This document shows, piece after piece, positions 139 through 5,232 of a stretch of DNA of 64,000 nt. Source of the stretch: Pantoea sp. SoEX. Its GTDB lineage: Bacteria > Pseudomonadota > Gammaproteobacteria > Enterobacterales > Enterobacteriaceae. Every line of letters starts with the position of its first letter. Position 1 is the stretch's first letter. The translations under genes and the position numbers were made by a program. The DNA is taken from NCBI RefSeq assembly GCF_009829945.1, contig NZ_SZZT01000002.1, forward strand, positions 62,001-126,000. Direction: 5' to 3'. Under the pieces are notes generated by a model, which made no database searches, was not told the origin of the DNA, and was given only the letters and a program-made list of their open reading frames with translations.

Positions 139-588
139 TCTTAAATTTGATAAATATTGTTTAATGTATTCAAATAACTAATATAATTGGTTCTGGTATG
201 AGTTGTTTTATAAAACTTATATATATAATATTCCTAAAAAATAAATTATTTTCATCATATTTTTTTATATAATCTCACCTAGTGATTTGTCCGAACACTC
301 ACATTTAATTATTATTCAAAATAAATAACAAGTATTAAATATGATTAAAATATTATAAACAAAAATACATTCGTCAAATTATAATTAATTTTTAATAAAA
401 ATAATTATTTAATAATAATTTATTTACATTAAACGTTATATTATTAAAACAATATATTTTACAAAAATTAAATTCAGCATCGCTGTTACTATGTATATTA
501 AAAGTGAATATACATAAAAAAAGAAAAATAACTTACTTAAAAAAGATATTTATCAACTTTTTTGTTAATACTCAGGAGAGTTTGCCTC
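139..588. other. Non-coding spacer slt-thrA
   Basis: About 450 bases with no credible reading frame. I see no remnant of trpR, arcA or the other genes that sit here in E. coli. I also find no threonine/isoleucine-rich leader peptide and no GC-rich terminator before thrA, so the thr attenuator appears to be lost. The one structured element is the inverted repeat at 491-515. A Shine-Dalgarno AGGAGAG lies at 574-580, just before thrA. Confidence 0.6.
491..515. repeat. Inverted repeat upstream of thrA
   Basis: ATGTATATT at 491-499 and its exact complement AATATACAT at 507-515 form a 9-bp stem with a 7-base loop. A run of A, not T, follows on the plus strand, so it does not look like an intrinsic terminator of plus-strand transcription. 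It could be an RNA hairpin in the thr leader or chance in AT-rich DNA. Confidence 0.4.
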
Positions 589-3000
589 ATGCGAGTGCTG
601 AAATTTGGTGAAACATCAATGGAAAATGCTAAACTTTTGGTTCTAGCAGCTGAAATTGTAGAAGATAATGCGAAACAAGGACAAGTGATAACTGTACTGT
701 CTTCTACGACTTATTTATTACAATTAATACAAAAAAAAATTAATATTAGAGATGCTAAAAATATTTTTTCTAATTTGTTATTAGATTTAGTCAATATTCA
801 GCCAAAATTAAATTTTGGTTATTTAAACAATTTCATAGAACTAGAATTTAATAAAATAAGGAAGATGCTTAACGGAATAAAATTATTAAAAAATTGTCCA
901 GATGAAATATATGCTTCTATTATATTTACAGGAGGAAAAATTTCTGTTGTTATTATGGCAGAAATATTAAAGGTTCGAAATAATAGTATTAGTATAATCA
1001 ATCCAGTAAAAAAATTACTTTCACATGGGAATTACTTGGAATCTAAAATTGATATAATTGAATCTAGTAAACGAATTAAAAGTGAGCTTGAGAATATTAA
1101 GAAAACTAATATTATTCTTATGATTGGTTCAATAGCTGGAAATAAAAATAACGAAATAGTACTACTGGGAAATGATGGTTCAAATTATTCAGCAGCAGCA
1201 TTAGCAGCATGTATTAATGCAGAAGTATGCGAGATATGGACTAACATCGATGGATTATATTCGTGTGATTTATCTTACATTAATAATGCAAAATTATTAA
1301 AATCAATATCATATACTGAAGCAGTAGATTTAGCTTATTTTGGTTGCAAAATATTTGATTTAAGAACTGCAAAAATTTTTAATAATTTTAAAATTCCTTG
1401 TTTGATTAAAAATATTTATAATGTCAAATCTACTGGAACTTTAATTAGCAATAAAAAACTTAAACAAAATAATAAGTTAGTCAAAAGTATAGTTAGTTTA
1501 AGTGATATAGTAATGTTGAATATTTCTGGACCAGCTGTCAATTATATATTGAGTGTATTATCTCGTATAATTTCTTTTGTGTCAAATGCTGGTATTTTAA
1601 TATTTTCTCTCATACAAACTTATTCAGAACCTAGCATTAGTTTTTACATATTAGAAAAGGATTTGCAACTAATTAATCAAATATTTAACAAAGAATTTGA
1701 ATTACAAAAAATATTATGTAATTCAATTAAAATAATTAAAAATTTAGGAATAATTTCAATTATAGGAGATGAAATATCTAATATTAAAGGAGTATATAAT
1801 AAGATTTTTTCAGCTCTAGAGCATGATAATATCAGTATTAAAGCAATATTACACAATCATTCTAAAAGCTCAATTTCAATTGTTATAAATGGTAACAATA
1901 TTATAGATAGTGTAAAAATAATATATTATTCGTTATTTGTTAATAACAAATCAATAGAAGTTTTTTTAATTGGAGTAGGTGGTGTAGGAAAGACACTATT
2001 GAATCAAATACATAGACAGCAAAATTTCTTAAAAAAAGAAAAACAAATAGAATTATACGTTTATGGAATTGCAAATTCACAAAAATCATTAACTAATTTA
2101 GGAGGTATTGAACTAAACAACTGGCAATTAAATCTCTGTAAAACTGGAAAACAATTTGATATCAATGAATGGATTAATTTAATCAAAAAATATTATTTGT
2201 CTAATCCAGTAATTGTAGACTGTACTTCTAGCCAAGAAATTGCTAATCAATATACAAATCTCCTATCTCACGGTTTCCATGTAGTTACGTCAAATAAAAA
2301 AGCTAATACATCTTCTTGGTATTATTATCAACAGATACGCTTTATTGCCAATAACACAAACCGCAAATTTTTGTATGAAACTAATGTTGGAGCTGGTTTA
2401 CCAGTGATCGAAAACTTAAAAAGTTTATTAAACTCAGGAGATCAATTTATAAAATTTTCAGGTATCCTATCAGGTTCTCTTTCATTTATATTTGGTAAAT
2501 TAGATGAAGGATTATCTATATCCGAAGCAACAGATATAGCGCGTAAAAAAGGTTATACTGAACCAGATCCAAGAGAAGATCTTAGTGGAAATGATGTTGC
2601 TCGTAAAATATTGATTTTAGCTAGAGAATTAGGTTATAAATTAGAATTAAAAGATATAAAAGTTGAACCCGTAGTGCCAAAAAATACGAGCAAAATTGAA
2701 AATTTTATGAAATATTTATCTAAATTTGATAATGTATTTAAAGATCGAGTATCTAAAGCTCGCAATTATGGTAAAGTACTTAGATTTGTTGGTACTATTC
2801 AAAAAGGTGGAATATGTGAAGTAAAAATTGATGAAGTATCAGAAAACAACCCGCTTTATAAAGTTAAAGATGGTGAAAACGCATTAGCATTTTATAGTAG
2901 TTATTATCAACCTATTCCATTATTGTTAAGAGGTTATGGTGCGGGAAATGATGTAACAGCAGCTGGTGTATTTGCTGATTTACTTCACACTTTATCATAA
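589..3000 (+). CDS. thrA: Bifunctional aspartokinase I / homoserine dehydrogenase I
   Basis: 803 residues (E. coli 820). The ATG at 589 is chosen over an upstream TTG because it gives MRVLKF exactly as in E. coli and has AGGAGAG 8 bases upstream. The N-terminal half (about 1-290) is the aspartokinase domain, 300-450 is the ACT-like regulatory region, and 455-803 is homoserine dehydrogenase with the NAD(P) loop GVGGVG at 462-467 and the motifs [13 protein letters not shown] and [19 protein letters not shown]. The dehydrogenase half is very well conserved. The kinase half is not: KFGGTS reads KFGETS (5-10), the GE.(M)S loop reads TGGKIS (114-119), GR.GSDYSA reads GNDGSNYSA (194-202), and HPRT reads DLRT (257-260). 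I infer that homoserine dehydrogenase activity is kept while aspartokinase activity is weak or lost. First gene of thrABC; 17 bases to thrB. Confidence 0.95.
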
Positions 3001-3017
3001 AAGTTAGGAATATAATA

Positions 3018-3947
3018 ATGGTAAAAATTTACGCACCAGCATCTATTGGTAATGTTAATGTGGGATTTGATGTTTTAGGTGTAGCAATTGCACCGATAGA
3101 TGGTTCAATTTTAGGTGATTGTGTAACGGTTAGATCTTCTAATCATTTTAAATTATATAATATAGGACATTTTGCAAATAAACTACCCAATAATACAGAA
3201 GATAATATTATATATCAATGTTGGCAATATTTTTGTAAAAAAATTAACACCATCACACCAGTAGAAATAATATTAGAAAAAAATTTGCCTATAGGATCTG
3301 GTTTAGGATCTAGCGCTTGTTCTATAGTAGCTGGCTTAGTAGCCATTAACGAATTTTTTGGTAATCCACTTGATAATAATGAGTTATTATTATTAATGGG
3401 TAATTTAGAAGGTTATATTTCTCATAGTATACATTACGATAATGTAGCACCATGTTTTTTAGGAGGCATGCAATTTATTCTAGAAGAAAATAATATAATC
3501 AGTCAGAAAATACCATTTTTTAATGATTTACTGTGGGTAATATCATATCCTGGTATCAATATATCTACAGCTCAAGCACGTTCAATTTTACCTTTACAAT
3601 ATTGTAGAAATGATTGTATTAAACATAGCCAATTACTAGCTGGATTTATTCACGCTTGTTACACCAATCAGCTCAATTTGGCTCTCATGCTAATGAGAGA
3701 TATAATAGCTGAACCATACCGTATTAAATTATTGCCAAATTTCTTGAAAGTACAAAAAGAATTACAAACTATAGGTGCAATGGTATGTGGCATTTCTGGA
3801 TCTGGTCCTACAATTTTTACTATTTGTAAAAAAATTGATCAGGCAAATCTTGTAGCAGAATGGCTAAAAAATAATTACTTAAGAAGTAGTGATGGTTTTG
3901 TTCACATTTGTCGCATAGATAATTTCGGTGCACGAAAATTAGGATAA
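3018..3947 (+). CDS. thrB: Homoserine kinase
   Basis: 309 residues (E. coli 310). It phosphorylates homoserine to O-phosphohomoserine with ATP, the fourth step from aspartate to threonine. It is a GHMP kinase: the ATP-binding glycine-rich motif [12 protein letters not shown] lies at 91-102, the N-terminal substrate region has [15 protein letters not shown], and the third GHMP motif [10 protein letters not shown] is near 257-266. The ATG at 3018 gives MVKIYAP, matching E. coli MVKVYAP. It sits 17 bases after thrA and 4 bases before thrC, so the three genes should be cotranscribed. No missing motif is visible. Confidence 0.97.
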
Positions 3948-3951
3948 AAAC

Positions 3952-5232
3952 ATGAAATTATATAATATTAAGTATCATAATGAACAAGTAAGTTTTATTC
4001 AAGCTGCTAAAAAGGGTTTGGGGTCTAAACAAGGACTGTTTTTCCCAGTAAATCTTCCAAATTTTAATTTAGATACTATTAATAGTATGCTGAAAATTAA
4101 TTTTATAGATCGTAGTTACGAAATTTTACATTCTTATATAGGAAATGAGATAACATCAAATAACTTGTTAATGTGTATTAAAAACGCATTTTCTTTCCCT
4201 GTTCCCATAAAGAATATATCTCATAATATTTCCTGTGTAGAATTGTTTCATGGTCCAACGTTAGCATTTAAGGACTTTGGTGGCAGATTTTTAGCACAAA
4301 TACTTGCATGTATTTGTGATAAAGAAAAAATTACTATTTTAACTGCCACTTCTGGCGATACTGGAGCCGCAATATCACATGCATTTTATGGTATGGACAA
4401 TATAAGAGTTGTAATTTTATATCCAAAAAATAGAATTAGTCCTTTACAAGAAAAGTTATTTTGTACAATGGGAGAAAATATTGAAACTATTGCTATAGAA
4501 AGTGATTTTGATACATGTCAATCATTAGTAAAAATGGCATTTGATGATGTATATTTAAACAAATCAATACATTTAAATTCAGCTAATTCAATTAATATTT
4601 GTAGGCTTTTAGCACAAATTTGTTATTATTTTGAAGCTTTAGCTGCTTTTCCTGAAGAAATAAGAAATAATTTAGTAATATCAGTACCAAGTGGAAATTT
4701 TGGAAATCTAACTGCTGGGCTTTTAGCAAAATCCTTGGGTTTACCAATAAAACGATTTATAGCTGCTACAAATACAAATAACACAGTGCCCAGATTTTTA
4801 GATAGTGGTATATGGGAACCACACATAACTATCCCTACTATATCAAATGCTATGGATGTTAGTAATCCAAACAATTGGCCAAGAATAAAAGAACTTTTTC
4901 ATAGAAAATCTTGGAAACTAACAGATTTGTTTTACGGTGTAGTGTCTGATGAAAAAACTAAATCATCTATTAGTAAATTAGATAAAATTGGTTACCTTTC
5001 AGATCCTCATTCTACTATAGCATGGCATGTATTAAAAAATAGTATAAAAGAAAAAGAACATGGTTTATTTTTAGGAACTGCACATCCTGCTAAATTTCAA
5101 GATGTTATTGAAAATATTTTGAATAAAAAAATAAGATTACCCTATGAATTAACAAAATATAATAAACTTCCTTTATTATCATATACAATGAAACCAAATT
5201 TTAATATTTTGCGTGAATTTTTGCTGAAATAA
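3952..5232 (+). CDS. thrC: Threonine synthase
   Basis: 426 residues (E. coli 428). This pyridoxal-phosphate enzyme converts O-phosphohomoserine to threonine. The cofactor lysine is Lys107 in the motif LAFKDFGGRF (104-113), and the phosphate-binding stretch TATSGDTGAA follows, as in the family. The motif VSVPSGNFGN, here ISVPSGNFGN, is also present. Start ATG at 3952 is 4 bases after the thrB stop, completing the thrABC operon. With ilvIH and leuABCD further on, threonine made here could also feed isoleucine synthesis, although ilvA is not in this window. Confidence 0.97.
   Translation: MKLYNIKYHNEQVSFIQAAKKGLGSKQGLFFPVNLPNFNLDTINSMLKINFIDRSYEILHSYIGNEITSNNLLMCIKNAFSFPVPIKNISHNISCVELFHGPTLAFKDFGGRFLAQILACICDKEKITILTATSGDTGAAISHAFYGMDNIRVVILYPKNRISPLQEKLFCTMGENIETIAIESDFDTCQSLVKMAFDDVYLNKSIHLNSANSINICRLLAQICYYFEALAAFPEEIRNNLVISVPSGNFGNLTAGLLAKSLGLPIKRFIAATNTNNTVPRFLDSGIWEPHITIPTISNAMDVSNPNNWPRIKELFHRKSWKLTDLFYGVVSDEKTKSSISKLDKIGYLSDPHSTIAWHVLKNSIKEKEHGLFLGTAHPAKFQDVIENILNKKIRLPYELTKYNKLPLLSYTMKPNFNILREFLLK

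Follow-up and report, generated by a model that had tools for sequence, protein, structure and literature searches.

The thrA gene of Pantoea sp. SoEX raises the question of whether a fused aspartokinase-homoserine dehydrogenase can lose one of its two activities and still be kept at full length. The gene lies in the 64,000-nucleotide stretch analysed here (the window, G000:C7:62001-126000), which comes from a genome of 826,838 bp in 12 contigs with 99.96% completeness. The evidence makes it very probable that the bifunctional ThrA of the Edessa stink-bug symbionts has been reduced to one function, with LysC carrying aspartokinase. We see in it a clear example of a fused enzyme decaying on one side only.

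Kinase-half residues in the window ThrA and its relatives

The thrA frame runs from an ATG at 589 to a stop at 2998-3000, and it is open across 803 codons with zero internal stops, as an earlier note on this DNA had reported (Table 1). The note had also listed KFGETS at residues 5-10, Gly-Gly at 115-116 (codons at 931-936), GNDGSN at 194-199, DLRT at 257-260, and LHNHS in the place of QGSS in the ACT region, and we found all of these where it had placed them. Upstream of thrA, positions 1-138 of the window hold the 3' end of an open frame, whose final residues we take to resemble a soluble lytic transglycosylase.

Table 1. Coordinates of features at the thrA locus, numbered from the first letter of the window.
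Feature	Position	Strand	Remarks
Shine-Dalgarno-like AGGAG	574..578	+	read from the sequence, 10 nt upstream of ATG 589
thrA	589..3000	+	803 codons plus stop; NCBIfam NF006959 947.4 bits, cut-off 726
Aspartokinase catalytic domain, substrate residues lost	589..1458	+	Pfam PF00696 90.2 bits
KFGGTS loop, here KFGETS (residues 5-10)	601..618	+	private to the window genome among six
Ser39 replacing Ala (E. coli LysC Ala40, aspartate contact)	703..705	+	alignment
Gly116 replacing Glu (E. coli LysC Glu119)	934..936	+	Gly in 5/5 Edessa-type ThrAs
Ser181 replacing Phe (E. coli LysC Phe184)	1129..1131	+	alignment
Asn195 replacing Arg (E. coli LysC Arg198)	1171..1173	+	alignment
Asn199 replacing Asp of the GSD motif	1183..1185	+	alignment
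Asp-Leu replacing His-Pro of the HPRT motif	1357..1362	+	alignment
ACT regulatory region, most diverged part of thrA	1459..1950	+	omega 0.207; 29/65 conserved sites changed
Homoserine dehydrogenase half, conserved sites intact by alignment	1951..2997	+	0/91 lost; Pfam PF00742 161 bits
thrB-like ORF, open	3018..3947	+	named by sequence and place after thrA
thrC-like ORF, open	3952..5232	+	named by sequence and place

We compared six genomes of the genus. Five of them (G000, the window genome, and G001, G003, G004 and G005) are called Edessa-type here, a label for stink-bug symbionts in which the host genus is the presumed one. The sixth, G002, fits a Brachystethus symbiont. The window protein passes the NCBIfam equivalog cut-off for ThrA, and the NCBI model still names it bifunctional, which is a point against a dead kinase. 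Since the standard annotation model calls the protein bifunctional, pathway reconstructions would count a half that is probably dead. The PF00696 (AA_kinase) domain of the window ThrA is above the gathering threshold of 24.9. Two Edessa-type ThrAs score 90 and 98 bits with this model, as compared to 147 for the G002 ThrA, 153 for the B. floridanus ThrA and 158 for the LysC of the window genome.

In E. coli LysC, aspartate is contacted by Ala40, Thr45, Glu119, Phe184, Arg198 and Ser201 and is held at both ends by salt-bridging residues, as described in passages of PMC5481828. A HMMER alignment to 2j0w places Glu119, Phe184, Arg198 and Asp202 at window residues 116, 181, 195 and 199, respectively. 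The loop Ala and Thr fall on residues 39 and 40 when the protein is aligned to 3c1m, and four residues are deleted between these two in the window ThrA. Glu119 and Arg198 are absent, with Gly116 and Asn195 in their places.

The reference panel consisted of 78 of 80 listed loci, with B. floridanus moved to the ThrA-only set described below and the fragment L097 dropped, and it includes a few insect symbionts such as Hamiltonella and Fukatsuia. Its members were retrieved by matching MRVLKFG[GE] and C[EI]IWT[DN].., hence the conservation of K5, G8 and D219 is partly conditioned by the search. A39, E116, F181, R195, D199, H257 and P258 are each invariant (78/78) in these named full-length ThrAs among the matches listed. 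At sites conserved in at least 98% of the panel, the window protein is changed at 37 of 120 positions in the kinase domain and at 6 of 146 in the dehydrogenase. With the length-1 fragment L097 included in the panel, the same contrast is 26/92 vs. 3/114 (Fisher p = 8.6e-8).

Alignment of ThrA with related symbionts, a check that the earlier note had proposed, showed that E116 and R195 are lost in 5/5 Edessa-type proteins and kept in G002. Glu116 is replaced by Gly in all five, and Arg195 by Asn or Thr. All five also carry Ser in place of Ala39, Ser or Ala in place of Phe181, Asp, Ser or Asn in place of His257, and Leu or Ile in place of Pro258. P228 is lost in all five, Asp199 in four and D219 in two, and Gly8 has become Glu in the window genome alone among the six. 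K5, G7, G194, S198 and T218 are kept in 5/5. The G002 ThrA retains Ala, Glu, Phe, Arg, Asp, His and Pro at the corresponding sites. Loss of kinase residues is a clade-wide property of the Edessa-type ThrAs, and most simply it would have occurred once, after the split from the G002 lineage. Compared to the 78-ThrA panel, the five proteins are changed at 32-45 of 120 kinase sites and 5-10 of 146 dehydrogenase sites. The G002 ThrA is changed at 20 and 11 of these sites, respectively, so its kinase half is somewhat relaxed too. The draft state of the window genome, in 12 contigs, might suggest a sequencing or assembly artefact; because the same sites are changed in five genomes, often to different letters, this is in practice excluded.

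The changes are not spread evenly over the domain. All five Edessa-type ThrAs have changes at the same four of the six aspartate-contact positions, as compared to 13 of the 92 panel-invariant kinase sites (hypergeometric p = 0.003 for the excess at contact sites). Unchanged across all five are 44 of the 92, including sites in KFG.TS, G..S.YSA and IWT. Judged from these alignments, it is the substrate pocket that went, more than the kinase domain at large. With most of the aspartate pocket lost, the N-terminal aspartokinase is almost surely inactive, as read from its residues.

A change of substrate is another reading. Replacement of Glu119 in E. coli LysC by Gly, Ala, Ser or Cys improves kcat/Km for malate up to 200-fold, according to passages of PMC5481828, and E116G is present in 5/5 Edessa-type ThrAs, as would suit a domain that phosphorylates malate or a similar acid. 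However, Arg195, a likely holder of the α-carboxylate of malate as well, is lost in 5/5. His257 and Phe181 are lost as well, and the replacements at Arg195, His257 and Phe181 differ by species (N/T, D/S/N and S/A, respectively). We therefore consider a malate kinase extremely improbable.

The dehydrogenase half, selection and the predicted fold

The window protein shares with E. coli-type ThrA (NF006959) its length, domain order, thrABC context, dehydrogenase half and predicted fold, and differs from it in the lost kinase substrate residues and the decayed ACT region. With monofunctional homoserine dehydrogenases (1ebf and others) it has the catalytic core in common, but unlike them it still has a full-length kinase-like N-terminal half. 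Among dehydrogenase sites at least 98% conserved in 110 ThrAs (genus g126 set aside), 0/91 are lost in the five Edessa-type proteins and 1/91 in G002. GVGGVG and GAGLP are kept in the window protein. E658, D664, D669 and K673, positioned through the alignment to 1ebf, are present in all six genus members; they match Glu208, Asp214, Asp219 and Lys223 of yeast homoserine dehydrogenase. PF00742 (Homoserine_dh) scores 156-164 bits in the four ThrAs scanned. The earlier claim that this half has no such losses agrees with the broadly conserved sites, none of which is lost. The half as a whole is not free of change, since 6/146 panel sites differ. By alignment, the C-terminal homoserine dehydrogenase sites are intact, and the enzyme would still work, feeding thrB and thrC.

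Separate dN/dS estimates for the two halves, also proposed in the earlier note, were obtained from a codon model with shared branch lengths, fitted to the gap-free columns of the five crown genomes. Omega was 0.119 for the ThrA kinase domain, 0.207 for the ThrA ACT region, 0.075 for the dehydrogenase, 0.080 for the LysC catalytic domain and 0.154 for the LysC ACT region; with synonymous sites almost saturated, these values are relative and it is their order that matters. Raw pN/pS ranks the five regions in the same way. The kinase domain is faster than the dehydrogenase (p = 6e-8) and than the LysC catalytic domain (p = 5e-6), and the latter two are alike (p = 0.49). The kinase half is relaxed yet clearly under purifying selection. 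The suggestion that homoserine dehydrogenase is all that selection still maintains is not supported in that form, because the kinase omega is far below neutral and 44/92 kinase sites are kept in five genomes, which together point to a constraint besides aspartokinase catalysis.

Branch lengths on a fixed tree, some deep nodes of which are weakly supported (45-79), gave kinase/dehydrogenase ratios of 1.78 in the crown and 2.45 on the stem of the Edessa-type clade vs. 0.93 on five large-genome tips. The kinase/LysC catalytic ratios were 1.52 and 1.80 vs. 0.64, respectively. On the reduced-genome tips G002, G018, G125 and G164, kinase/dehydrogenase ratios were 1.52, 1.61, 1.54 and 2.08 and kinase/LysC ratios were 1.05, 1.42, 2.06 and 1.44, respectively. 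These tips are raised too, thus the rate increase is partly general to reduced genomes. A fast kinase half is not diagnostic of a dead kinase by itself, as G018 reaches its kinase/LysC ratio of 1.42 with intact motifs.

An AlphaFold2 model keeps the aspartokinase fold (mean pLDDT 84, pTM 0.56), with 3c1m and 2hmf as best fold matches, 2j0w at rank 9 and TM-scores of 0.85-0.87 by target length, although a model based on a family alignment tends to show this fold in any case. The protein has the sequence features of a pseudoenzyme, in which catalytic residues are gone and fold and frame are kept under selection.

Purifying selection at an omega of about 0.12 is needless for a useless domain, and this argues against a simply dead kinase. 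A pseudokinase half retained for a positive role, through continued binding of nucleotide (or some other ligand) and regulation or stabilisation of the dehydrogenase, rather than merely tolerated, would be in agreement with this omega, with the 44/92 unchanged sites, with the concentration of losses in the aspartate pocket and with a fold predicted to be intact. But P228 and H257 are lost in five proteins, D199 in four, D219 in two and G8 in one, and G8 and D219 look nucleotide-side. The ACT region of aspartokinases carries feedback signals, and here it is the least constrained part of the protein. A constraint on the hydrophobic core would look alike. We consider a selected pseudokinase unlikely. 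Under the preferred reading, in which ThrA serves as a dehydrogenase, the kinase half would stay because it is joined to an essential enzyme and probably serves folding or oligomerisation. It is probably kept as a scaffold.

LysC and feedback control

The earlier note had expected the kinase activity to be supplied from lysC or metL elsewhere and had named a genome with no other aspartokinase as evidence against its idea. A genome search found lysC at G000:C7:3313-4656 (L001:1492-2838), on the same contig and about 58 kb upstream of thrA. The other counter-evidence named in the note would be an aspartokinase of proven activity with these substitutions, and we came across none. Its product has KFGGTS, YGEL, GRGGSD and HPST, keeps SASATITNI, and scores 583.9 bits with NF006570 (cut-off 455). 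LysC with KFGGTS, GEL, GFI and GRGGSDY is present in 6/6 genus genomes. A search for the amino acid kinase family returned five genes in the window genome, thrA, lysC and three more. The three are read as argA, argB and pyrH, the first two from sequence, length and neighbours and the last from length only. Kinase-family, ThrA and LysC searches of the window genome found no metL-like third aspartokinase. The loss of the ThrA kinase apparently followed because lysC covers that job. It would have arisen in a genome where LysC made the ThrA kinase redundant, and the first step of the aspartate family, from aspartate to aspartyl phosphate, would now be carried out by LysC alone.

Of the other pathway genes, asd and lysA were found in 6/6 genus genomes, both above curated cut-offs, and each of the six has one gene above the cut-off of the Cys/Met-metabolism PLP family. 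The symbiont genomes of PMC8032781 have full essential amino acid pathways except branched-chain ones, as stated in passages of that paper. The main text of that paper does not contain the words thrA, lysC, lysine, aspartate or homoserine, and titles and abstract beginnings of the matches listed included no paper on ThrA kinase loss in these symbionts.

LysC of this genus keeps its catalytic motifs and differs from the usual LysC near E. coli positions 318-323 and 343-354, which are altered in 6/6 genus genomes. These segments are little changed in 10 other aligned LysCs (4 from reduced and 6 from large genomes). The window LysC has M318 deleted and carries S321K, G323K, S338P, T344S, S345D and T352I; L325, D340 and E250 are kept. 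The lysine-binding residues of E. coli LysC lie within 318-325 and 338-352, and the window LysC departs from them at the changed positions just listed. In an E. coli LysC turned into a malate kinase, T344M, S345L and T352I strongly reduce inhibition by lysine, and the same three changes were earlier found to relieve it in the wild-type enzyme, both according to passages of PMC5481828.

The earlier statement that the ThrA ACT region is diverged agrees with its omega and its changed sites (Table 1), and loss of threonine feedback in the window ThrA is plausible from the sequence. ACT decay is common in ThrA-only genomes too (0-40 of 50 ACT sites changed), therefore by itself it says little on feedback. 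The altered LysC and the decayed ThrA ACT region suggest a pathway held back by neither lysine nor threonine, a state that would fit a host-feeding symbiont. Altered LysC feedback may have made it easier for a single kinase to supply both branches. We rejected a strict order in which lysine control of LysC has to go before the ThrA kinase can be lost, because G164, G125 and G153 show ThrA kinase losses with an intact-looking lysine site in LysC; the LysC change is no precondition. In G002 the LysC ACT region is already altered while the ThrA kinase core sites stand, so a weaker LysC-first idea may apply to this clade.

ThrA and LysC in reduced genomes

We surveyed 50 picked genomes, namely G002 and 49 of at most 2.2 Mb, mostly one or two per genus; other genomes from these genera, and some of at least 1.6 Mb, were left out. 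Full-length ThrAs for use came from 35 of the 50. Truncated or frameshifted ThrAs (G010, G109, G148, G152 and G254) and genomes with a LysC-sized match only (G012, G013, G034, G066, G077, G079, G096, G146, G165 and G190) were set aside. The ThrA-only set reached 35 by the addition of G023, G015, G035, G058 and B. floridanus, the ThrA of which is 49% identical to that of the window and keeps the catalytic motifs. In these 35 ThrA-only genomes (at most 2.2 Mb), a LysC query matches just ThrA, one each, and neither this nor a ThrA query found a second aspartokinase.

Ala39, Glu116, Phe181, Arg195, Ser198, Asp199, Asp219 and His257 are each kept in 35/35 ThrA-only genomes. Pro258 varies and is kept in 30. 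In reduced genomes with a full-length ThrA, 7 of 10 LysC holders have lost Glu or Arg vs. 0 of 35 ThrA-only genomes. By lineage, the loss is seen in 3/6 LysC-holding lineages vs. 0/24 ThrA-only genera (p = 0.005), or in 4/6 lineages when G153 is added (p = 0.0005); both p-values ignore relatedness among genera and refer to genomes that were picked rather than drawn at random. The three lineages with Glu/Arg loss are the Edessa-type clade, G125 (Gln) and G164 (Ser and Ser). This is a natural experiment, in which Glu and Arg are kept in 35/35 where ThrA is the only aspartokinase found and lost in 7/10 genomes (3/6 lineages) with LysC.

These comparisons bear on whether the kinase could still work despite its unusual residues. 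The open frame is kept and family models score above cut-off (TIGR00657 277 vs. 209 bits in the window ThrA). However, the residues forming salt bridges with the two ends of aspartate are lost, and such losses occur in 0/35 of the ThrAs that appear to work alone, which leaves an active kinase very improbable. Loss of aspartokinase function, as the earlier note proposed, is the best reading of the sequences, with E116 and R195 lost in 5/5 Edessa-type ThrAs and kept in 78/78 of the panel proteins listed and in the 35.

G002, G018 and G153 hold LysC and keep both Glu and Arg, so the presence of LysC does not force the loss. The core sites are also kept in G002 and G018. G153 (L173 and L178) has a 708-kb genome and a LysC with intact catalytic motifs; Glu and Arg stand in its ThrA, where KFGGTS reads KIDENLL and the IWTDVDG block is gone. 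By sequence, its kinase has decayed separately and more deeply. We rejected a high count of altered kinase sites as evidence in itself of a dead kinase, since the ThrA-only G082 is changed at 42/120 sites vs. 37 in the window protein and keeps Glu and Arg. The substrate residues are a better sign than this count.

In genus g126, apparently Wigglesworthia, the other half decays instead. Its ThrA (L172, L174 and L175; G240, G312 and G131) shares with the window ThrA a full-length bifunctional open frame with one half decayed, and is opposite in which half. Of the 91 dehydrogenase sites, 45-47 are lost, among them those of the NAD loop and GAGLP, while the kinase core is kept with Glu, Arg and KFGGTS, the Pro of HPRT excepted. 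A LysC query of the three genomes found no second aspartokinase. A wider proposal would be that reduced genomes dismantle fused ThrA one half at a time, in a direction set by the surviving isozymes, that the Edessa kinase half is a selected ligand-binding or structural pseudokinase regulator, and that LysC, freed from lysine, is the only and unregulated gate to lysine and threonine for the insect. We regard this combination as speculative and rather unlikely. The fate of fused enzymes under genome reduction and the loss of feedback in nutritional symbionts are directly testable by a few purified proteins.

Several of the ThrAs set aside were shortened. In G010 (L051, genus g6), ThrA is cut to a 305-codon open frame with the kinase only, beside dnaK, and four other g6 genomes have a single match each with similar E-values. 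In the ThrA remnant of G109 (L170), a stop follows the kinase plus ACT regions. G152 (L176) and G254 (L177) have partial kinase open frames of about 400 codons.
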